Made by a program: the position numbers and the translations under genes. Shown piece by piece: positions 31,800-42,128 of a DNA stretch of 64,000 nucleotides. Where the stretch lies: assembly GCF_900104845.1 (NCBI RefSeq), contig NZ_FNSR01000001.1:1302001-1366000 (forward strand). Direction: 5' to 3'. The stretch comes from Paraburkholderia caballeronis. Lineage in GTDB: Bacteria; Pseudomonadota; Gammaproteobacteria; Burkholderiales; Burkholderiaceae. A model generated the notes under the pieces. It did no database searches, had not been told where the DNA came from, and saw only the letters and a list, made by a program, of their open reading frames with translations. Numbering within the stretch: the first letter of the stretch is position 1; each line of letters starts with the position of its first letter.

Positions 31800-33311
31800 T
31801 CACTCGTGAGCTTCCGCATCGGCATCGAACGTCGTCTTTTCGTCGCGCAGCCCGTGCGAGCCCATCAGCCGGTACAGCGTCACGCGCGAGATGCCGAGTT
31901 CGGCCGCCGCCTCTGCGAGCCGGTGCCGGTGCCGCAGCAGCGCCGCTTCGATCGCGCGCCGCTCGGCCGCCTCGCGCGCCTGCGCGAGCGTCAGCGTCTC
32001 GCTGCCGGCGAACTGCGCGAGGTCGAGGTCTTCCGCCGAGATCAGCTTGCTTTCGGCCATCACGATCGCGCGGCGCACGCGGTTGATCAACTCGCGCACG
32101 TTGCCGGGCCAGTTGTAGTTGTACATCGCCTCGATCGCGCACGGCGTGAAGCCGCGGATCCGGCGCGCGCTGTCCATCTTGAACTTGCGCAGGATGTGGT
32201 GCGCGAGGATCTCGATGTCCTTGCCGCGCGCGCGCAGCGGCGGCTCGTCCACGCGCAGCACGCACAGCCGGTGATACAGGTCCTGCCGGAAGCGCCCTTC
32301 GCGCATCGCGGTTTCGAGATCGACGTGGGTCGCGGAGATGATCCGCACGTCCACCTGAATCTGCTCGTGGCCGCCGAGCCGCTCGATCTTGCCTTCCTGA
32401 AGGAAGCGCAGCAGGCTCGCCTGGCTCTCCAGCGGCAGGTCGCCGATTTCGTCGAGGAACAGCGTGCCGCCGTCGGCCGACTCGACGCGGCCGACCTTGC
32501 GCTGGTTCGCGCCGGTGAACGCGCCGCGCTCGTAGCCGAACAGTTCGGATTGCAGCAGATGATGCGGGATCGCGCCGCAGTTGATCGGCACGAACGGCGC
32601 CTTGCGGCGCGCGGAGCGCTCGTGGATCGCGAGCGCGGTCAGCTCCTTGCCGGTGCCCGACTCGCCGGAGATGAACACGGTCGCGTCGGTGTTCGCGACC
32701 TTGCGGATCGTGCGGAACAGTTGCTGCATCGCGTCGCAGGTGCCGACCATCTCGTCGTCGTCCGGCGTAGCAGTGGCGGCCGGCGGCGCGTCCAGGTCGC
32801 ACAGCGCGACCATCCCGAGCGCGTGGTTCACGAGGTAGTCGAGCGTCGCGTGCGCGACCGGCAGCTGCACGTAGTCGAAGCAGTAATGGCGGATCAGCCG
32901 GCGCACGCCCGGATCGGCGAGGCGGTTTTCGTCGGTCAGCACGATCCAGCCGACCTGCTGAAGCCGCAGGCTCGTTTCGAGGCTCCCCAGTTCGCGCTGC
33001 CCGAAGCCGGTCAGGTCGACGACGCCCGCGCACGCGAGGTCGGGTTTCAACTGCTTCGTCGCCTCGTATGGCGTGCGCGCCGTCACCAGATCCCAGCCGC
33101 GGCTCTTCAGGTACGCGACGAGCGCCATGTCCGGCGCGCGCGCGACGTACAGCAGCGGGCGCTCGGTGGCGGGTTCGGACTGCGGAGCGCGCAGCGTGTC
33201 GTCGTGGTCCTGCGGCGCGACGGCGGATTGCGGCGGCCTCGTGACCGCGAGCCGCCGCGCGACGCTCGCGAAGGGCGTCACGTTGGCGCTCAGAGGGGAG
33301 GGTTCGCGCAC
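31800..33311 (-). CDS. Sigma-54-dependent activator with VpsR-like N-terminal domain (fap regulator 1)
   Basis: 503 residues. The AAA+ domain has Walker A GESGTGKE, the sigma-54-contact loop GAFTGA and Walker [14 protein letters not shown]; a C-terminal Fis-type HTH ends [18 protein letters not shown]. The N-terminal about 190 residues look like a degenerate, VpsR-type receiver without the usual phosphorylation site in context. The start is GTG at 33311 with AGAGG upstream. It begins 16 bp after the fapF-like stop on the same strand and is therefore the last gene of the fap-like operon. It is a close paralogue of the activator at 40731-42128. Confidence 0.88.
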
Positions 33312-33327
33312 GATGGCCTCTCGTTCG

Positions 33328-34800
33328 TCAGAAGGTGTAAGGGAAGCGGACCCCGACGACGAAGTTCGGCGCGTCGGGCGTCAGCCCGACCGACAGCGCG
33401 CCGTTGATCGTCAGGTGCTTGTTGATTACGTGGTTCAGGCCGAAATTCAGCACGGCCGCGGTCGTCTGGCTGCCCGGCACGTCGCTCCACGCGCCGCCCG
33501 GCGCTTTCGTCTTCGACTTCGGCTGCAGCGCCATCGTGTACGAGATGCTCGCGGAGTCCTTGTCCGAGAACGCGAGCGCGACGCCGCCGCCGAACTGGAT
33601 GATGTCGCCGAGCTTCACGTTCGCGGGCTGCGTCTGCCCGACCACGGACGAGATGTCCGCGAACGAGCGCGCGACGTTGTACGTGTAGGACAGGCTGCCG
33701 AACAGCACGACCGGGTCGTACGTCTTCAGCACCGACATGCCGGCCGTCACGTTCCAGAAGCCGGTGCCGGTCGGCAGTTCGCCCGGCGCGACGAGGTTCG
33801 TGTTGTCCTGCGTGAGTTGCTGCACCTTGATGCCGAACGGCGACGTGCCGGTCGGCGCTTTCACGCGCAGGCTGCCGACGACGTCGGGCAGGTTGTTGGT
33901 CTCCTTCAGGAACTGGTAGTAGATCCCGAAGTTCACGTCGCCGATGGCGTGCGAGCTGACCGACGCATCGGACAGCGTGCCGGCCGCGCCGCCCGCGCCC
34001 CCGACGATGAAGCTGCTGTTGCGGTACATGTACGGCACGTCGACGTCGACGCTGATCCGGTCGGTGAGGCCGTAGCGCGTGTCGAGGTCGGCCATCACCT
34101 GGTGCGACTTCGTCTGGCCGAGGTTGATGTTGCCGAGGAAGATCGCGTCGAGCGCGAGGAAGCCGGACAACTGCAACTGGCGACGGTCGTAATAGGTATC
34201 GCTGATGCCCCAGTCGAGCGTCAGCCGGCGGTCGAAGAGCGGCGCGTGCTCGCGCTGCACGACCGCCTGCTCGGCCTGCGTGCGGGTCGGCTCGGCGGCC
34301 TTCTGCGTCTGCCCGACCGCGGTCGTCTCGCCGGGCTGCTGCGGGCCGCTCGCGGCGGCGCTGCCGGTCGCGCCCGCGGTGACGCCGCTGTCCGGCGCTG
34401 GCGGGTTGACCGGCACGCCGGTCGCGGTGCCGGTCTGCGCGCCGGGCGCGTTCACGCCGGGCGTCGCCTGCGCGAGTTGCGGCAGAGGCGGCAGCGGCAC
34501 CGGCAGGCCGTCCGCGCCGGGTTGTTCCGCGACGCTGTCGCCGTCCGGCGCGGTCCCGCCGGACAATCCGCGTCCGCGCTGCGCCATCTCCAGGTTCGTC
34601 ACCTGGCGCTCCAGCGACTGGATCTGTCGTTGCTGCTCATCGACCACGCGCATCAGAGTGTTCAGACGATCTTCGAGTGACTGGTTCGTCAGCGCCTGCG
34701 CGCCGGCGTCCCGCGAAAACACAAAAAACAGCAGTACGGCTGCTGCGGGTATGGCGGCGAGCGCCGGCCGCCCCGCGACGGTCCTCGACATCGTGTTCAT
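33328..34800 (-). CDS. fapF: FapF-like outer-membrane beta-barrel protein with N-terminal coiled coil
   Basis: 490 residues. Signal peptide (residues 1-35, ending AGA-QA), then a coiled coil at about residues 41-73 (EDRLNTLMRVVDEQQRQIQS...), a Gly/Pro/Ala-rich linker to about residue 180, and a C-terminal barrel of alternating amphipathic strands ending in Phe (VVGVRFPYTF), the usual OMP sorting end. Coiled coil plus linker plus barrel is the plan of Pseudomonas FapF, the trimeric channel that exports amyloid subunits. The order after a C39 peptidase and FapE-like gene supports this. Distinct OMP families could share parts of the plan. Confidence 0.75.
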   Translation of the reverse strand: MNTMSRTVAGRPALAAIPAAAVLLFFVFSRDAGAQALTNQSLEDRLNTLMRVVDEQQRQIQSLERQVTNLEMAQRGRGLSGGTAPDGDSVAEQPGADGLPVPLPPLPQLAQATPGVNAPGAQTGTATGVPVNPPAPDSGVTAGATGSAAASGPQQPGETTAVGQTQKAAEPTRTQAEQAVVQREHAPLFDRRLTLDWGISDTYYDRRQLQLSGFLALDAIFLGNINLGQTKSHQVMADLDTRYGLTDRISVDVDVPYMYRNSSFIVGGAGGAAGTLSDASVSSHAIGDVNFGIYYQFLKETNNLPDVVGSLRVKAPTGTSPFGIKVQQLTQDNTNLVAPGELPTGTGFWNVTAGMSVLKTYDPVVLFGSLSYTYNVARSFADISSVVGQTQPANVKLGDIIQFGGGVALAFSDKDSASISYTMALQPKSKTKAPGGAWSDVPGSQTTAAVLNFGLNHVINKHLTINGALSVGLTPDAPNFVVGVRFPYTF

Positions 34801-34937
34801 TGTTGTTCCCCCGGATTGCCGCGGGCGCCGAACCGTCCGGCGCGACCCCCGCGCATTGCGATGCTCCTGTCTTGCTGCGGCTACATCGTGCGGGTCGCGG
34901 CCCGCTCAAGGTCTCCTCGTCATCCTTCCATTTCCCG

Positions 34938-35777
34938 CTAGCGGACGTTGCGCAGCGCCTGCAATACGCCGGTCTGCCGCAGCATCGCGCCGCTGATCTG
35001 CTGCGTCTGCAATACGAGCTGCAACTGGTTCGCGACCTGCTGGCTGTTGCCCGCCACCTGCAGCAACTGCGCGATCGAGCCGGCCTGCTGCGCGTTGCCC
35101 GGCGCGATGCTCTGCGTGGCGATGCCGGCCGGCGTCTGCAATGAAACCGTGACGCCGCCGTTCGCGAACGCGATGCCGGCCTTCACCGTGCCGGTTGCAT
35201 TGGCCGCGCTCGCGGACGGCGATGCGCTGCCGCCCGCCACGTTCGCGAACTGCGCCGCGTTGTTGCTGTAGTCGATCTGCGTGGCGTTGGTGCCGACGTT
35301 ATTGTTGCCGGCGACCTGGGTGACCTGCGATACGCCGTTCACCGACACGTTCTGGCCGCCGTTCGCGCTCGCGTCCGGATTCGCGCCGCTGTTCGCGGCG
35401 TTCGTGCCGTGGCCGGCGTCGAGCACGTGCGCGGCGGTCTGCACCTGCGCGCTGACCTGGTTCGCGGCGTTCTGCGCGACCACCAGCGAGCCTTGCGCGA
35501 CGGCGGTCGCGCCGTTCGGCAGATGCCATTGCGAGAGCAGGTTCAGCACGAACCCGGAGATCATCTGGCTGCCGGCGTATTTGCCGGTCTGGGAGGCGAG
35601 TACGTCGTCGTCGACGGACTGCCATCGAAGGGTCTGCTGCCCGGCGCCGCCGGCCGAAAGAAAGGCCGGCAGTGTTTCTGCGCCGGGGCTGTCGGCGGTA
35701 GACGCTCCGCTCGCGTGGCCGCACGCGAGCGCGCAGAGCGCGGCCGTGACGCCATACGTGGAGAGGTAGCGTTTCAT
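34938..35777 (-). CDS. fapE: FapE-like secreted protein, amyloid-associated
   Basis: 279 residues. Signal peptide (residues 1-24, cleavage after ASG-A); the rest is rich in Gln, Asn, Ala, Ser and Gly, with few charges, like a surface amyloid accessory protein. A motif VDDDVLASQTG (about residues 54-64) resembles LDDQTLSRQRG in the first gene of the operon. It starts 12 bp after the FapD-like gene without a clear Shine-Dalgarno, so translation is probably coupled. In Pseudomonas FapE is a minor fibril component. Assignment is by position and composition more than by sequence. Confidence 0.6.
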   Translation of the reverse strand: MKRYLSTYGVTAALCALACGHASGASTADSPGAETLPAFLSAGGAGQQTLRWQSVDDDVLASQTGKYAGSQMISGFVLNLLSQWHLPNGATAVAQGSLVVAQNAANQVSAQVQTAAHVLDAGHGTNAANSGANPDASANGGQNVSVNGVSQVTQVAGNNNVGTNATQIDYSNNAAQFANVAGGSASPSASAANATGTVKAGIAFANGGVTVSLQTPAGIATQSIAPGNAQQAGSIAQLLQVAGNSQQVANQLQLVLQTQQISGAMLRQTGVLQALRNVR

Positions 35778-35789
35778 GACGGTTTGGTT

Positions 35790-36503
35790 TCAGAACAGGA
35801 CGGCCTTGTCGAGGCCGAATTCAACGAAGGGGGTCGCAGCCGTGCCGTTGGCGAGCGCGGTGGAGCGCAGCTTCAGCGCGAGCGACTCGTTGTTCTGCAA
35901 CAGCGGGGAGTCCTCCCTGAACGGTTTGCCGAGAACGGCGAACACGAGGCCGTTCCACGTTTTGGCGAAGTCGCTTTCGTTGACGATGCGGTTGCCGAGC
36001 GCGGGGTCGGCGATGAAGATGCGGCCGTTTTCGGCGTGCTTGACGATCACGAAGTGCTCGTAGCCGTCGATGTTCATCAGCACCATTACTGGAATCTGCA
36101 GGTGGTAGAGCGCATCGGTGTTGACCCTGAAGCCCCGGCCGCGCATTCCGATCGTCTCGACGAACTTTTTCATGTCGAGCATCGAGAAGCCGTTCTTGAT
36201 GACCACCTCCGGCGTCGAGAACGCCATCATCCGGCGGATCAGTTCGGTTTCCGGAATATCGATTCCGTAGCCGTATTTGAGCAGCGTCGCGAGCGCGGCG
36301 GCGCCGCAGCTATAGTCGAATTGCTGGTTGACGATGCTGGTGTAGCGGATGTCTCTCATCGAACGAATGGGCTTCTTCAGCGGCACGCCGACGAGGTTAG
36401 TCGTATCGAGGGTCGATTGTGCGTGGGCCGGCGCACACAACAGGCAACTTGCCAGTGCGACGACGAAAGCCTTTGCCGCCGGGAGCGGAACGAGCCCGGA
36501 CAT
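35790..36503 (-). CDS. fapD: FapD-like periplasmic C39 peptidase
   Basis: 237 residues with signal peptide (residues 1-28, AHA-Q). The C39 catalytic cysteine is in FDYSCGAAALATLL (about residue 66), the histidine in YEHFVIVKH (about 147), and the aspartate in FIADPALGNR (about 164). C39 peptidases usually cut after double-glycine leaders and are often fused to ABC transporters; this one is free-standing and exported, as is FapD of the Fap amyloid system. A strong AGGAGACCA Shine-Dalgarno precedes the ATG at 36503. It lies just after the 49-bp hairpin array. Confidence 0.82.
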   Translation of the reverse strand: MSGLVPLPAAKAFVVALASCLLCAPAHAQSTLDTTNLVGVPLKKPIRSMRDIRYTSIVNQQFDYSCGAAALATLLKYGYGIDIPETELIRRMMAFSTPEVVIKNGFSMLDMKKFVETIGMRGRGFRVNTDALYHLQIPVMVLMNIDGYEHFVIVKHAENGRIFIADPALGNRIVNESDFAKTWNGLVFAVLGKPFREDSPLLQNNESLALKLRSTALANGTAATPFVEFGLDKAVLF

Positions 36504-36881
36504 GATGGTCTCCTGTGTCGACCAGAGTTGGCGCTTTAGCGCCTACTCTGGTCCCATGCAAAGCTGTCGATCGGAGTTGGCGCTTTAGCGCCTACTCTGG
36601 TCCCATGCAAAGCGGTCGACCAGAGTTGGCGCTTTAGCGCCTACTCCGGTCCCATGCAAAGCTGTCGATCGGAGTTGGCGCTTTAGCGCCTACTCTGGTC
36701 CCATGCAAAGCGGTCGACCAGAATTGACGCTTCAACGCCTACTCCGATCCCCTGCAAAGCCGTCGATCGGGGTCAGTGCTGTAGCGCCTGCTTCGATCCC
36801 CTGCACGATGCTCGCCGTTGATCTGCCGCACCGGCCGCCGTGACGGCGACCGGTGCGCAGCTCCCCGTGCTGCGACGCGGC
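36504..36881. other. Intergenic region between fapC-like and fapD-like genes
   Basis: This 378-bp gap holds the six-unit 49-bp repeat (36517-36810), the fapD Shine-Dalgarno (about 36509-36513) and, at 36811-36881, about 70 bp of unremarkable sequence after the fapC stop. No ORF with coding character and no separate promoter was seen. Confidence 0.85.
36517..36810. repeat. Six tandem 49-bp hairpin units (three 98-bp dimers)
   Basis: Six copies of a 49-bp unit at 36517, 36566, 36615, 36664, 36713 and 36762. The core of the first copy is a palindrome: 8-bp arms ACCAGAGT/ACTCTGGT enclosing a T/T mismatch, 5-bp arms GGCGC/GCGCC and loop TTTA; then a constant tail CCCATGCAAAGC. Units alternate in type: odd ones begin ACCAGA, even ones ATCGG, so the real period may be 98 bp. 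Copies 5 and 6, nearest fapC, are diverged; 1-4 are nearly identical. In the operon transcript each unit would form a stem-loop between fapC and fapD. Confidence 0.93.
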
Positions 36882-38465
36882 TTAATGGCCGCTGTTCAGC
36901 GCAGCGATCGCGAGGCCGTTGTGCTGCAGGTTGCCGGCGCCGCCCGCGATGTTCACGCCGATGTTGCCGCTCGCGCCGTTGAGCGTGTTCGCGCCGAGGC
37001 TCGCGGTGCCCTGGAACGCACCCGTCACGACCATGTTCGCGCTTTGCGTGTTGTTGTCGGTCGCGACCATCGCGGTCGTCAGCGCGTAACCCGGGCTCGT
37101 CGTCGTCACCGCGCCGGCAAGGCTGTTGTTCTGGATGTTGCCGACGCCCGACGCGACGTTCACCCCGACGTTGCCGGTGACGCTCGACAGCGAGTTGTCG
37201 CCGACGGATGCGTTCAGGTTGTAGTTGTTGATCCGCGCGGTGCCGGAGCCTTGCTGCGCATTGAAGATCTGCGCATTGCCGAACACGTTGCCGACGTCCA
37301 CCGACGCGAGCGCGACGTTGTTCGCCTGCGCGTTGTCGACGCCCTCGGCGATGTTGATGCCGAGGTTGCCGGACACGCCGGTCGCCGCGTTGGTGCCGGT
37401 CGTCGCGTTCAGCGTCGCCGCCTGCTGCGTGTTCGTGATCTGCGTGAAGCTGCCGGTCGTCGTTTCATCGACCGTCGTCAGCGAGTCGCTGACGTTGTAG
37501 CCCCACGAATGGCTCGACGACGTGTCCTTCGCATACGACGACGACGACGAGCGCGAGCTGTCGTTCGACTTCGTCGTGTCGTGCGAGTACGAACTGTCCG
37601 AATCGCGCGAGCGGCTCGACGAGCCGTCGACGCTCGCGTTCAGCGACGCGCTCGCGCTGCCGTTCGCATACGCGTTGTTCGCGTTCGACGAGTTTGACGT
37701 CGCGTTCGAGTCGGTCGTGCGGCCCCACGAGTTCGACGCCTGCTTCGTGCCCGAGTTGTCGTGCGAGCTGTCGCGGTTGTGATACGTGCTGCCGTCGCCG
37801 CCGACGGTGACGCTCGCGCTGCCGTTGCCGAAGGTGCCGCTGCTCGACGTCTGGATGCCGACCGTTGCCATGCCGCCGCCGTCCTGCGAGTGCGACGACG
37901 TGTTGTTCGCGACGTCGCTGTGCGACTGCGTATGGCCGCTGCTGCCGGTGTTCGACGCGTGGTTCGTCGACGAGCTGTCGCTCGTGCTGCCGTTGTTGCT
38001 CGACACGCTGTACTGGCTGCCGACGCTCGCGTTCAGGCTGTTGCCGAAGCTCGAATTGCTGCTGGCGCTCTTGCTCGTGTTCGTGTCGATCGAGTGCGAG
38101 CCAGACGACGACTTCGACGCGTCCGAGTTCTGCGACGTGCTGAAGCTGCTGTTGTTGTACGTGCCGTTCGCGCCGGTGCCGTTCACGCTCCAGTTGCGGT
38201 CGTTGTAGGTGGTCGTCACCGCGCCGATCTGGAAGCTCTGGGCCTGCGGATACAGCGTCGCGTTCGCGTTGACGGTCTGGCTGTTGTTGATGACGGCGCC
38301 GGCAGTGCTCGACACCTGGACGCAGCCGAACAGCGTCACCCATCCTTCGATGCCGACCTGCTGACCGACGGCCGTCGAATTGAACAGGAAGGGGTTGGCC
38401 GGGGCCGCGAACGCGGAACCGGTCGCCGCTGCGAAGACTGCCGCTGCAATGAGTGTGCGCTTCAT
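36882..38465 (-). CDS. fapC: FapC-like amyloid subunit (large Ser/Asn-rich secreted protein)
   Basis: 527 residues, signal peptide (residues 1-20, AFA-A). Residues about 85-320 are extremely rich in Ser, Asn, Asp, Thr and His with poly-Ser tracts. Residues about 330-527 hold three imperfect copies of a 35-residue repeat with a G-N-[LVI]-G-[IV]-N core, then -A-x-G-x-x-N-x-Q-x-N-x-[LA], as in the Fap amyloid repeats; they are separated by linkers. There is a single Cys (FGCVQV, about residue 48). This fits the major fibre subunit FapC, though the long Ser-rich domain is larger than in Pseudomonas. CGGAG precedes ATG 38465. Confidence 0.7.
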   Translation of the reverse strand: MKRTLIAAAVFAAATGSAFAAPANPFLFNSTAVGQQVGIEGWVTLFGCVQVSSTAGAVINNSQTVNANATLYPQAQSFQIGAVTTTYNDRNWSVNGTGANGTYNNSSFSTSQNSDASKSSSGSHSIDTNTSKSASSNSSFGNSLNASVGSQYSVSSNNGSTSDSSSTNHASNTGSSGHTQSHSDVANNTSSHSQDGGGMATVGIQTSSSGTFGNGSASVTVGGDGSTYHNRDSSHDNSGTKQASNSWGRTTDSNATSNSSNANNAYANGSASASLNASVDGSSSRSRDSDSSYSHDTTKSNDSSRSSSSSYAKDTSSSHSWGYNVSDSLTTVDETTTGSFTQITNTQQAATLNATTGTNAATGVSGNLGINIAEGVDNAQANNVALASVDVGNVFGNAQIFNAQQGSGTARINNYNLNASVGDNSLSSVTGNVGVNVASGVGNIQNNSLAGAVTTTSPGYALTTAMVATDNNTQSANMVVTGAFQGTASLGANTLNGASGNIGVNIAGGAGNLQHNGLAIAALNSGH

Positions 38466-38494
38466 GGTTGTCGCTCCGATACGGATGTAGTCAG

Positions 38495-39133
38495 TTAAAA
38501 AAGAGTGCCCGCCGGGGGACGGAGCACAAAACTGTTCGCCGTGACGTTGCCGGCGCCGGCTGCCTGGTTGATCTGCACGAGACCGGTGGCATTCGCGAAG
38601 GCTGTATTGCCGATACTGGCCTCGCGAATGCCCTGTGCCTCGGCGGAGCGTCCCCGGCCGCCGTTGGTCGCGGCCGCGGCGGACAATACGACGTCCGAAA
38701 CGGCCTCGACCCCAATCGCAGCAGTGCCGAGCTGCGCACTGTTGCTCTGGACATTGCCCGCGCCCGCCGACTGGTTCACCATCACCGCGCCGGACGCATT
38801 CGAAAACGCATTCGCACCGATGCTCGCGCGCGCGGTCGTCACGACCGCGCTGCCGCTCGCGTGCTGCGCATTCAGGTTCAGGTTGCCGACGGCGCCGCCG
38901 TCGGTGATCGTCAACTGGTTGGCCTGCGCGTTGTTCAGGCCGGCGGCCTCGTTGACGGCGAGCGCGCCGGTCACGCCGATGGCCGCATCGGGCGCGACGC
39001 TCGCGTTCGCGCCGACGATCGCCTGCGCGTGCGCCGAGCCGCAGAGGGCGGCCGCGACAAGCAGCGCGGCGGCGTGTGCGAATCGTGCGAACCGCGCGCG
39101 GCGGAGCGGGACGCGATGCGCGCGCGGGCTCAC
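38495..39133 (-). CDS. fapB: FapB-like secreted repeat protein (minor amyloid subunit)
   Basis: 212 residues. The start is GTG at 39133, overlapping the previous stop (GTGA), then an Arg-rich N region and hydrophobic signal core (HAAALLVAAALCGSAHA-Q). The mature part has three repeats of about 30 residues with the core VNxAAGxxNxQxN (for example VNEAAGLNNAQAN and INQAAGAGNVTAN). These resemble the repeats of the fapC-like protein, but without its Ser-rich domain. Position before fapC and size near 190 residues suggest FapB, the nucleator subunit in Pseudomonas. The exact identity is inferred. Confidence 0.62.
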   Translation of the reverse strand: MSPRAHRVPLRRARFARFAHAAALLVAAALCGSAHAQAIVGANASVAPDAAIGVTGALAVNEAAGLNNAQANQLTITDGGAVGNLNLNAQHASGSAVVTTARASIGANAFSNASGAVMVNQSAGAGNVQSNSAQLGTAAIGVEAVSDVVLSAAAATNGGRGRSAEAQGIREASIGNTAFANATGLVQINQAAGAGNVTANSFVLRPPAGTLF

Positions 39134-39660
39134 TTCATGCCTCCGAGCGCGCCGCTCAACGCGGTGGACAGCGGCGCGAGCGCGCCGGTGACGGTCGACG
39201 AGATCGTGCCGCCTATCCCGCTGACCGCGCCGACGCCAGCGCCGGCCGCGCCGAGCGCGGTGTTCGAGCCGGTCGGGTTGCCGCTCAGGATGCGCGTGAC
39301 CGCCTGCATGCCGGCGCTGTTGTTGTTCAGGATGCCGCCGGGGGCGACGCCGGTCGAACCGCGCGCGTTCGTCAGATCGGTATCCGAGACGAGCGACGCC
39401 ATCATCGGGTCGAACGAGTTTTTCGGGAACGTCGTCGCGCGCACGCTGACCGGGTCCTCGCTCTTCGGGATCGACGCGAAGGCGCTGCGCGGAGTGATGT
39501 CGCGCTCGACGATGATGTCGCCGGGGTTGACGACCTGCTGGGCCGTCGCGAGGGGGGCGGCGACGGCGGCGGCGAGGCCGAACAGCACCCCGAGCAGCGC
39601 GGCGACGCGCGTGTTGGGACACCGGCCTGTCGAGGCCGGCGTCGTGAGGCAAATAGTCAT
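39130..39660 (-). CDS. Secreted protein of unknown function in the fap-like operon
   Basis: 176 residues. Long N-terminal signal sequence (hydrophobic core LLGVLFGLAAAVAAPLATAQ, about residues 22-41), then a region with VVNPGDIIVERDITPRSAF and a Gly/Ala/Thr/Ser-rich C-terminal half ending LSTALSGALGGMK. No family was recognised. AAGGAGACCA precedes ATG 39660. It overlaps the fapB-like gene by 4 bp, so the two must be made together. It could be a divergent FapA-type chaperone, or a minor surface component; neither can be shown from sequence. Confidence 0.75.
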   Translation of the reverse strand: MTICLTTPASTGRCPNTRVAALLGVLFGLAAAVAAPLATAQQVVNPGDIIVERDITPRSAFASIPKSEDPVSVRATTFPKNSFDPMMASLVSDTDLTNARGSTGVAPGGILNNNSAGMQAVTRILSGNPTGSNTALGAAGAGVGAVSGIGGTISSTVTGALAPLSTALSGALGGMK

Positions 39661-39721
39661 CCTGGTCTCCTTCCACGGGCCGGCGCGGCTTCAGGCGTCG
39701 CGCCGGCGCTCCGCGTAGCGG

Positions 39722-40189
39722 TTATCTCCGCGTATAGCTTGCGATGTTTCCCTGAGCAGCCTGCGATGCATCGATCGGCACCGGCAGCGGCATCGGCGGT
39801 GCGATTTCGTCCCATAGCGTGACGCCGTTGCCGCGCATCAACTGCGGCGTCGCGGCGACCATCACCATGCCGACCGCGCCGCCGCGCTGGCGCGACAGCG
39901 TCTGGTCGTCGAGTTGCCCGACGCCGGCGACGGTGTCGTCGCCATGCGGCGTATCGGATGCGATCCGGCGGCGGTCTGAGATCGCGTCGGCGCTGTCCGT
40001 GGGCGCGTCGCCCGACCTGGCAACCGCTTCGTCGGTCTGCGCGGCGCGGGGCGCGTCGTTCGCCTGCGCATGCGCGCCTGGCGCTGCGACGAGCAGCGCG
40101 GCGGCGAGCGTAGCGGGCAGCAGCGCCGCGGCAAGCGCGGTGCGGCGAACGGCGAAAAGGCGTCGGGCAAGTTGGGAAACGGATCGCAT
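39722..40189 (-). CDS. Small secreted protein with LDDxxLxxQRGG motif, first gene of the fap-like operon
   Basis: 155 residues. Signal peptide (residues 1-41, ending PGAHA-QA), a polar, Asp/Ala-rich region, and then LDDQTLSRQRGG (about residues 93-104) followed by a short hydrophobic stretch AVGMVMVAATPQLM. The motif has the L-12, L-7, G-2, G-1 pattern of double-glycine leaders cut by C39 peptidases, and a C39 peptidase (FapD-like) lies in the operon. By position it would correspond to fapA, but homology was not recognised. ATG 40189 has AGGAG ten bases upstream; an open frame further upstream to 40315 is not used because the sigma-54 promoter lies inside it. Confidence 0.7.
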   Translation of the reverse strand: MRSVSQLARRLFAVRRTALAAALLPATLAAALLVAAPGAHAQANDAPRAAQTDEAVARSGDAPTDSADAISDRRRIASDTPHGDDTVAGVGQLDDQTLSRQRGGAVGMVMVAATPQLMRGNGVTLWDEIAPPMPLPVPIDASQAAQGNIASYTRR

Positions 40190-40218
40190 GGCGTGGTCTC
40201 CTGGTCGACAGCCGTTAT

Positions 40219-40234
40219 AGCGAAACGTGTGCCA
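40219..40234 (-). promoter_or_regulatory. Sigma-54 (-24/-12) promoter of the fap-like operon
   Basis: On the minus strand TGGCACACGTTTCGCT has GG and GC exactly 12 bp apart, with TGGCAC complete and a -12 element TCGCT close to TTGCT. It lies 30-45 bp upstream of the first gene's ATG, so transcription would start about 20 bp before that ATG. The two flanking sigma-54 activators make the call much stronger than the match alone. Confidence 0.78.
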
Positions 40235-40307
40235 TCGCCCGAAACCCGTTGATGCGTCTCGAACGCTTCGGCCAGTTGCAGATCCGCAAAGCGAAAACCG
40301 GCCAAAA

Positions 40308-40325
40308 CGTTTCAAACCTGAAACG
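40308..40325. promoter_or_regulatory. Inverted repeat, candidate enhancer site for the sigma-54 activators
   Basis: CGTTTCA-AACC-TGAAACG is a perfect 7-bp-arm palindrome centred about 85 bp upstream of the -24/-12 promoter, the usual distance for an activator binding site. A related half-site TGAAACACG is about 35 bp further upstream. Binding is inferred. Confidence 0.55.
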
Positions 40326-40730
40326 GTAAATGTTAATTACGACCATCTGGAATAAATCTGAAACACGGATGTCGCCGGTAAAGGGGCATAATTGCGTCCG
40401 CCATTTATTTTATTAATTGAGTTGGCAATTACTGTCGCACCCGGGCTGGAAGCCTTTCCACAGGCTGTCGCGGGCGAGCGACACATATTTTTTGCCGCGT
40501 TGGACTGCACATATAGTAAGCTTTGGCAAAACCTCAGTAGTTAGAACCAGCCCGCCACGGGCCGCGTAAAAATTACGCACACACACGCCGCAACTCGGGG
40601 AATCGCTGTCAGCAAAAAAGCATACCCGGTCGCCTTTTTCTTTCAGAAGGCGAGTGGCGATTCGTGCTGCGTGTCTGGAATTCAGGTGCGTCCGTCATTC
40701 TCAATCTGTGTTGGCAAGAGGATCTGAATA

Positions 40731-42128
40731 ATGGAACCCGCAACGCGGCAATTGGTGTACGTGACGCGTGACCCTAACGCGGCATTGCATGATCAGTTTC
40801 AGGATCGCGGCTGGACGGTGGAAGTCGTCGCCAACGCGCGCGAAGCACGGCGCGCACTGCGGGCAGGCCAGCCCGCGGGCGGACTGCTCGACCTGTCGAG
40901 CCACTTTCAGTTGAACGAAATCGGTTCGTTCGAACCGTGCCTTACGTTGCCCAACGTCGGCTGGGTCGCGGCGACGACGACCGGCCAGTTGCACGACGCG
41001 TCGCTGCGCCGGCTCGTGCGCGATTACTGTTTCGATTACGTAACAGTGCCGTGGAGCGGCGACCGGATCGTGGATTCGGTCGGCCATGCGTACGGCATGG
41101 TATCGCTCGGCGAACCCGCATCGAACGACACGACGGGCGGCAACGAAGGCGAGATGGTCGGTTCGTGCGACGCGATGCTCGCGTTGTTCCGCTCGATCCG
41201 CAAGGTCGCGATGACCGATGCGCCGGTGTTCATTTCGGGCGAGTCCGGCACCGGCAAGGAACTGACCGCGGTCGCCATTCACGAGCGTTCCGCGCGCCGC
41301 AAGGCGCCGTTCGTGCCGATCAACTGCGGCGCGATTCCGCCTCATCTGTTGCAGTCCGAACTGTTCGGCTACGAGCGGGGCGCGTTCACCGGCGCGAGCC
41401 AGCGCAAGATCGGCCGGGTCGAGTCCGCCAACGGCGGCACGCTGTTCCTCGACGAAATCGGCGACCTGCCGCTGGAGAGCCAGGCGAGCCTGCTGCGCTT
41501 CCTTCAGGAAGGCAAGATCGAGCGGCTCGGCGGCCACGAGCAGATTCCGGTCGACGTGCGGATCATCTCGGCGACCCACGTCGATCTGCGCGCGGCGATG
41601 GCCGATGGGCGCTTCCGGCAGGATCTGTATCACCGGCTGTGCGTGCTGCAGATCGACGAGCCGCCGCTGCGCGCGCGCGGCAAGGACATCGAGCTGCTCG
41701 CGCGGCACATGCTCGAACGCTTCCGCAAGGACGGCGGCCGCCGGCTGCGCGGCTTCTCGCCGGACGCGATCGCCGCGCTGCATAACTACAGCTGGCCCGG
41801 CAACGTGCGCGAGCTGATCAACCGCGTGCGCCGCGCGATCGTGATGTCCGAAGGGCGCGCGATCACCGCGCGCGACCTCGAACTGGGCGAGTACGTCGAG
41901 GTCGTGCCGGTGTCGCTCGCGCAGGCGCGCGAGGCGGCCGAGCGGCAGGCGATCGAACTCGCGCTGCTGCGCCATCGCGGCCGGCTCGGCGACGCCGCGC
42001 ACGAACTGGGGATCTCGCGCGTCACGCTGTACCGGCTGCTGTGCGCGCACGGGATGCGCCACATGCAGAGCGACGCGCTCGCGCCGCATCCGGGCGGGCT
42101 CACGTCGAACGGCGGCGCGGCGCTGTGA
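40731..42128 (+). CDS. Sigma-54-dependent activator with VpsR-like N-terminal domain (fap regulator 2)
   Basis: 465 residues. AAA+ domain with Walker [15 protein letters not shown] loop and Walker [14 protein letters not shown], then a Fis-type HTH ending [18 protein letters not shown]. The first about 130 residues form a degenerate receiver-like domain (CFDYVTVPW segment conserved with the paralogue), like VpsR-type activators, some of which bind cyclic di-GMP. It shares long identical stretches with the activator at 31800-33311, for example the whole of [20 protein letters not shown]. Divergent from the fap-like operon, so probably its direct activator. Confidence 0.9.

Follow-up and report, generated by a model that had tools for sequence, protein, structure and literature searches.

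A seven-gene Fap-type amyloid operon of Paraburkholderia caballeronis with a promoter-proximal gene that carries a putative FapD site

The window analysed here, a stretch of 64,000 nucleotides of Paraburkholderia caballeronis (RefSeq assembly GCF_900104845.1, contig NZ_FNSR01000001.1, positions 1,302,001 to 1,366,000), carries a Fap-type functional-amyloid operon preceded by an additional gene, orf1, which is the main subject of this study. Seven open reading frames (ORFs) succeed one another on the minus strand between positions 33328 and 40189 in the order orf1-fapA-fapB-fapC-fapD-fapE-fapF, each of them confirmed where a preliminary description, made from the letters alone, had placed it (Table 1). 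Overlaps or short gaps had been described between them, which holds for most junctions (61 bp between orf1 and fapA, a 4-bp overlap of fapA and fapB, 29 bp between fapB and fapC, 12 bp between fapD and fapE, 137 bp between fapE and fapF) but not for the 378-bp gap between fapC and fapD; the regulator gene regR lies 16 bp after fapF. As had been proposed, six of the seven proteins matched the Fap families in the order of the Pseudomonas fapABCDEF operon, with best E-values against the NCBIfam models from 3.9e-10 (FapA) to 3.6e-107 (FapF). All of these matches scored below the curated cut-off of the model, in which the locus differs from Pseudomonas Fap. Orf1 matched nothing in Pfam or in NCBIfam, the latter searched at E up to 1. 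The first two genes had both been held to be unlike FapA; this stands for orf1, but the second gene matches the FapA model (its second-best match being NF058556, E=6.5e-6, also below cut-off), so that one gene is unusual and not two.

We next looked at how far this arrangement is conserved. A genome scan with FapD, in which the nearest named relatives were Paraburkholderia proteins of up to 87% identity, gave 118 places, and the best 80 of these, from Paraburkholderia, Trinickia, Burkholderia and one Burkholderiales metagenome-assembled genome, constitute the 80-locus set used throughout. The gene order was the same in all 80 loci, fapF being absent from three whose contigs end early, and orf1 directly preceded fapA in every one. 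Together with the matches of six of the seven proteins to Fap models, this conserved order indicates that the arrangement is not due to chance. In a family sample of 398 genomes (FapD presence called at E<1e-60, genomes with FapD and orf1 counted by hand), an orf1 match was found in 100 of the 115 FapD-bearing genomes, and the 15 others fall in three other genera. Among 5.8 billion proteins there were 364 orf1 homologues, and the species-named ones among the 120 listed are from Paraburkholderia. We also read 13 further Fap loci with orf1 outside the 80-locus set. In genus g282, a second and weak match to the orf1 profile lies beyond fapF on the opposite strand (locus L150, near 5247 (+); also genome G501).

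The literature on Fap is cited below from passages of open-licence papers. FapD retains the catalytic residues found in Pseudomonas (here Cys66, His150 and Asp166), and its DYSCGAA, EHFVIV and ADP motifs align to the C39 domains of peptidase-bearing ABC transporters of solved structure. The C-terminal 300 residues of FapF matched the crystal construct 5o65 of this protein (E=1.6e-83), so that profile searches assign the C39 protein to FapD and the last gene to FapF, as had been expected. The anticipated barrel was also predicted: the FapF model comprises a coiled coil (residues 42-76), a disordered linker, a helix at 175-184 corresponding to the plug helix and a barrel from residue 193, with 5o65 as the best structural match (E=3.9e-26); the mean pLDDT was 63.5, and most ten-residue blocks of the barrel (from 191) exceeded 70. 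FapC shares with its Pseudomonas counterpart three imperfect repeats, which start at residues 366, 431 and 500 by regular expression. It differs by a stretch before the first repeat (residues 61-365) with 82 Ser in 305 residues (27%), hence the enlarged Ser-rich domain of the preliminary description is real, and by a single Cys, hence no CxxC, where Pseudomonas FapC has a C-terminal CxxC (PMC5135000). Three repeats were found in FapC of 71 of the 80 loci and two, by regular expression, in the other nine; the first began at residue 273-431 and was preceded by 11-31% Ser. Three repeats are described as almost invariable (PMC12822426) and FapC is known to vary widely in length (PMC12392863), so the long form lies within the known range. 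In FapB the regular expression found two repeats in the window, a third, degenerate copy being visible by eye only, and in the 80-locus set it found one repeat in 64 loci, two in 10 and none in six. All together, the family matches, the FapF structure, the catalytic residues of FapD and the FapC repeats establish that, by sequence, the locus is a Fap operon, and the cell would thus make fibres for biofilm.

Table 1. Features of the Fap locus and its flanks (positions of the window).
Feature	Position	Strand	Basis or remark
regL, VpsR-domain sigma-54 activator	40731-42128	+	divergent from orf1
Sigma-54 type -24/-12 site TGGCACACGTTTCGCT (putative)	40219-40234	-	motif; ~43 bp before orf1 ATG
orf1 (155 aa, exported small protein, first gene)	39722-40189	-	homologues; no Pfam/NCBIfam match
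Segment LDDQTLSRQRGG of orf1 (residues 93-104), proposed FapD recognition/cutting site	39878-39913	-	motif comparison
Proposed C-terminal peptide of orf1 (residues 105-155, AVGMVMV...VTLWDEIAPP...TRR)	39725-39877	-	release inferred
fapA-like (176 aa)	39130-39660	-	NF058617 E=3.9e-10, 40.3 bits vs cut-off 110
fapB-like (212 aa, GTG start overlapping fapA)	38495-39133	-	NF058557 E=1.4e-22
fapC-like (527 aa)	36882-38465	-	NF058558 E=2.2e-13
49-bp palindromic tandem repeats, five to six units, core GGCGCTTTAGCGCC	36516-36805	.	within fapC-fapD gap
fapD-like C39 peptidase (237 aa)	35790-36503	-	PF03412 E=2e-23; NF058616 E=1.2e-60
fapE-like (279 aa)	34938-35777	-	NF058559 E=4.1e-11
Segment VDDDVLASQTGK of FapE (residues 55-66)	35580-35615	-	spacing as in orf1 segment
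fapF-like outer-membrane channel (490 aa)	33328-34800	-	NF058560 E=3.6e-107
regR, VpsR-domain sigma-54 activator	31800-33311	-	operon direction

The orf1 protein begins with a hydrophobic N terminus that we read, by eye, as a putative signal peptide (the AlphaFold model has a low-confidence helix at 7-34). A variable linker follows, then the segment LDDQxLSRQRGG, the stretches AxGMVMVAATPQL and VTLWDEIAPPxPLPIPVD, and a basic tail. In an alignment of 25 orf1 sequences, the invariant residues include, within the segment, a D, an L, an R and a G, and further downstream VTLWDE. The AlphaFold model (mean pLDDT 57.9) offers little that can be interpreted, apart from a short helix at 95-101, again at low confidence.

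The segment resembles a C39 cleavage site. The leaders recognized by C39 peptidases follow the double-glycine consensus LSxxELxxIxGG. As in these leaders of bacteriocins and signal peptides, which are handled by peptidase-bearing ABC transporters, the two Leu and the Gly-Gly of LDDQTLSRQRGG stand at the consensus spacing; unlike them, the segment is preceded by a Sec-type signal plus a linker, standing some 50 residues into the exported protein, and FapD is a separate exported peptidase without an ABC transporter. The pattern [LI]D[DE]..L..[QE]RG[GRS] fits 78 of the 80 orf1 sequences, and the remaining two deviate at one position each. RGG ends the segment in 71 of the 78, RGR in six and RGS in one; endings in GR and GT occur in loci outside this set. 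A segment of the same spacing is present in FapE. Paraburkholderia FapE carries (V/G)DDDVLAxQTGKYAG or a near form, and the FapE of other clades have a like segment in 30 of 32 cases, 28 by regular expression and two (L089, L094) by eye. Its typical form, ELxDxE(L/M)AxLRG(K/R)(Y/F), was found in all seven FapE that score above the FapE cut-off (L218-L224), which we take as Pseudomonas-type. The residue before the FapE Gly was Thr in 75 and Ser in five of the 80 loci and Thr in all 13 further orf1-bearing loci, versus Arg in the three orf1-less loci that were read, so that this FapE residue varies with whether orf1 is present. FapC of these three orf1-less loci measures 259-279 residues in total. 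The earlier idea of a distinct Fap branch therefore suits the orf1-bearing loci, as in the loci read orf1 is accompanied by a long FapC and by a FapE of the T/S form.

Profile comparisons (HHalign, untrimmed profiles only) aligned orf1 and FapE on the segment with a probability of 58% (E=1e-4), or 55% (1.2e-4) when a more diverse FapE profile was used. Against FapA, B, C, D and F, the orf1 profile gave 3.5, 2.7, 0.4, 0.7 and 9.2%, in each case at signal-peptide columns. Under a stricter column setting, the score of the first orf1-FapE comparison, 29.4, was never reached in 200 column shuffles (maximum 21.7). The match covers only 19-32 columns around the segment, and no likeness between orf1 and FapE was seen beyond it, so that a paralogy of the two proteins is unsupported.

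Two other Fap proteins were considered as FapD substrates. In FapA, D..L...[RH]G is found in 78 of the 80 loci (in the window SDTDLTNARG, 39358-39387, which resembles the orf1 segment). It was dropped as a third substrate because the profiles gave no FapE alignment there (0.4% and 2.6%) and the pattern occurs in 7 of 16 further loci; in Pseudomonas, FapA is reported to be unprocessed (PMC5557850). FapF is not claimed either: the similar EMAQRGRG that closes its coiled coil is one residue short and was not seen in two distant FapF. A double-glycine motif in FapF has been proposed as a candidate (PMC5135000).

In Pseudomonas, FapC secretion requires the catalytic Cys of the periplasmic protease FapD, and peptide maps lack the N terminus of FapE (PMC5557850); FapE is considered the likeliest FapD substrate in the published passages. 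The same source describes the FapD target as still unclear, with no canonical C39 sequences in the Fap proteins (PMC5557850), and another states that the substrate is yet to be determined (PMC6173800). Instead of being cut, the LDDxxLxxxRG element could serve for docking, FapD or FapF holding orf1 and FapE as a chaperone or targeting step. A GR or GK in place of GG in FapE and in some orf1 would suit this possibility, as would the short low-confidence helix of the orf1 model and the existence of C39 domains that do not cut (PMC5557850, PMC6173800), but this FapD retains its Cys, His and Asp, and both the requirement for the catalytic Cys and the missing FapE N terminus in Pseudomonas argue for proteolysis; we thus regard an uncut element as unlikely.

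Between regL and orf1, we noticed a putative sigma-54 type promoter site, TGGCACACGTTTCGCT, which the preliminary description had not mentioned, nor had it mentioned the double-glycine-like segment or the two VpsR-domain activators, RegR and RegL, that flank the operon. GG-N10-GC is the layout of the -24/-12 elements in sigma-54 promoters. In 75 of the 80 loci, the stretch from regL to orf1 contained the pattern TGGC-N8-(T/C)GC(A/T), as compared with 4 of 80 after shuffling. When sought 150-720 bp upstream of TLWDE, it was found in all 80 (6 shuffled) and in 11 of the 13 further Fap loci (0 shuffled). A stricter sigma-54 consensus expression fitted none of the 80 loci, and no sigma-70 type site was found within 33000-41000. 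A search of Rfam gave no match. From the conservation of the -24/-12 site before orf1, transcription probably starts before this gene. RegL was found in 80 of the 80 loci and RegR in 73, the other seven being on contigs that end early; both proteins contain GAFTGA, which we take to be the sigma-54 contact loop. In role they may be likened to BrfA of the Pseudomonas fap system and BerB of Burkholderia cenocepacia, enhancer-binding activators tied to biofilm-matrix genes, of which the former acts on fapA (PMC13101488) and the latter works with RpoN (PMC5552954). The present locus differs in that two paralogues flank the operon, with a putative binding of cyclic di-GMP (c-di-GMP) and a putative RpoN dependence. 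No paper joining VpsR, fap, amyloid and c-di-GMP was found in the open-licence literature.

Orf1 also occurs where the amyloid genes do not. An orf1 match was obtained in 178 family genomes, 78 of which had no FapD at the above threshold, and we studied 63 Fap-less loci: 62 from these 78 genomes, plus L143, an additional copy in a genome with the operon at another site. FapA, C, D, E and F were not found at E<0.05 in the stretches fetched for the 63 loci; a fapB remnant persists in 19 of them, and 15 have both regulators, the others regL only. TLWDE was readable in 61 (L157 and L207, without it, were excluded), and the segment was lost in 60 of the 61, being kept in L148 only. By contrast, it was kept in every FapD-bearing locus with a readable orf1. 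In a regL tree of 149 tips, all 85 FapD-bearing tips with a readable orf1 have the segment, versus nine maximal FapD-less clades, of which eight have a readable orf1 and seven have lost it. Eleven loci could not be placed in the tree because no usable regL was available; nine of them, with FapD and orf1, were read separately and also keep the segment, which brings the total to 94 of 94 (80-locus set, window and 13 further loci), and the other two are L151, without an orf1 match, and L207. The decay appears graded: the segment is intact in L148, reads LDEQMPSRQRGSAPG in L146 and LDEQALGRQGGGAVG in L147, which has a stop codon in the matched stretch, and is absent in the larger clades. A putative promoter site of the same -24/-12 type was found in each of the 60 distinct loci without Fap that were tested (after shuffling, in 1, 1 and 0 loci of three overlapping sets), hence orf1 has retained this site after the loss of the amyloid genes.

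Some Fap-less loci showed further features of their own. The fapB remnant is the C terminus of the gene (ending in LRPPAGTLF) and adjoins orf1 (L139, L140, L196 and 16 others). Genome G573 holds a full Fap locus with orf1 (L154) and, on another contig, the Fap-less copy L143, with both regulators and a segment-less orf1.

Orf1 might also be a dispensable Fap accessory whose Fap-less copies are pseudogenes, the segment decaying like the rest. The graded decay in the apparently recent losses (L146, L147 with its stop codon, L148) and the weak constraint upstream of the C-terminal part would agree with this; for this upstream part, the difference rates at the three codon positions were 0.347, 0.298 and 0.360 in 38 Fap-less loci and 0.291, 0.339 and 0.380 in 11, with little third-position excess. 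Just after TLWDE, however, the rates were 0.239, 0.153 and 0.338 in the 38 loci and 0.180, 0.073 and 0.349 in the 11, a third-position excess in both sets, and orf1 frames remain readable in Fap-less clades of 40 and 11 loci. With the promoter-like site in every tested Fap-less locus, this makes mere pseudogenes a rather improbable outcome. That orf1 is an unrelated small gene standing by chance before an ordinary Fap operon, as the description of Burkholderia-relative operons as fapABCDEF (PMC3792158) might suggest, is very improbable in view of its invariable place before fapA, the promoter-like site ahead of it and its match in most FapD-bearing genomes.

A C39 peptidase and a FapF-like barrel are also combined in the FilB/FilC cassette, a putative pilus system; FapD and FapF also match the NCBIfam models of FilB and FilC, though less strongly than those of Fap. 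Pairs of a C39 peptidase (E ~1e-35 to FapD) and a FapF-like barrel (E ~1e-40) are common in the family (for example L237-L241). The genome of the window (7.1 Mb, 3 contigs) gave only one FapD and one FapF match. Next to five such C39-plus-barrel pairs no further Fap gene was matched, and in a crude scan of these five cassettes one chance-looking match to the segment was seen, in a 555-aa ORF.

The palindromic repeats between fapC and fapD were considered as an attenuator. This was rejected because their core GGCGCTTTAGCGCC is present in 28 copies across the genome, frequently spaced in 49-bp steps, and none of the 80 loci of the relatives contains it. The repeat thus appears to be a dispersed element of this lineage, apart from the Fap system.

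A mechanism may be suggested. Sigma-54, together with the flanking VpsR-domain activators, would transcribe orf1-fapABCDEF from one -24/-12 promoter, and since these activators are probably responsive to c-di-GMP, as suggested by BrfA and BerB, the operon would be tied to this messenger. By homology, FapB and FapC would be the repeat-bearing amyloid subunits, FapA a chaperone, FapE an accessory subunit and FapF the outer-membrane channel. Orf1, presumably exported by Sec, would be recognized in the periplasm by FapD at LDDQxLSRQRGG and cut after the last Gly, freeing a 51-residue peptide with VTLWDEIAPPxPLPxP that may act in the envelope or outside. FapE would be a second substrate through its like segment, cut after (T/R)G(K/R). 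In lineages that lose FapD, orf1 would drop the segment and keep its C-terminal part under the same promoter site.

Several observations weigh against this mechanism. Cleavage of orf1 by FapD is a prediction, and the sites are not uniform: FapE and some orf1 segments end in GR, GK, GS or GT instead of GG, where orf1 is present, the G of the FapE segment is preceded by T or S instead of R, and the segment is not at the expected place in two of the 32 FapE of other clades (L099, L232). The profile match is sensitive to its settings, since under a stricter column setting it drops to 20% (13% with the diverse FapE), the segment being short, and the diverse-FapE score of 26.7 was beaten once in 200 column shuffles (26.9). 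The five C39-plus-barrel cassettes had, in that crude scan, no orf1-type partner with the segment. As to the losses, the tree is that of a single gene, midpoint-rooted and without support values, and its tips share ancestry. Loss of the segment could belong to a wider decay, as upstream orf1 is weakly constrained; the 11-locus clade has also lost the stretch directly after the segment, and the L143 orf1 lacks the segment though G573 has FapD elsewhere. Finally, the orf1 profile was used to find the Fap-less loci and the TLWDE pattern to read them, which biases them toward retention of the TLWDE part; an intact segment would have made a Fap-less orf1 more readily detected by this profile, not less.

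Nevertheless, the explanation that we favour as a whole, with some but by no means full confidence, is a seven-gene Fap operon in which FapD would cut orf1 and FapE and the orf1 peptide would outlive the amyloid. The C-terminal part and the promoter site stay when FapD and the segment are lost, thus the orf1 peptide probably has a job that is independent of Fap. As a best guess, the peptide would act in the matrix or at the cell surface and be produced alongside the amyloid, since the two have a promoter in common and its own signal would still export it where the channel no longer exists. In its broadest form the proposal is tentative: orf1 may found a new family of periplasmically matured peptides, released by FapD and serving the cell, for example in the matrix or in signalling, with regulation by sigma-54 and VpsR-type activators, after the amyloid is lost, when they would be made without the segment, and ELxDxELAxLRG-R/K may be the FapD site generally, including in Pseudomonas.

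The operon can thus be described as a Burkholderiaceae Fap subtype with a seventh, promoter-proximal gene. Orf1 alone is outside the known set; the core was already known, as Fap operons were reported in Burkholderia relatives in 2013 (PMC3792158), and fapABCDEF or fapBCDEF is the order of more than 90% of 1602 clusters (PMC12822426). In the passages of open-licence literature, no description of orf1 was found, and the single paper in which FapA, FapC and Paraburkholderia appear together surveys pseudomonads. As far as we have searched, what is new is the seventh gene, together with its connection to FapD and its persistence in the absence of Fap.

The segment, which is shared by orf1 and FapE and disappears from orf1 along with the protease, indicates behind which residue a FapD cut should be sought. 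Because orf1 looks as if it were cut by the operon's own protease, it would help to identify the substrates of FapD. Moreover, that orf1 persists behind a Fap promoter site in lineages that have lost the amyloid suggests a second role for a locus regarded so far as an amyloid operon.

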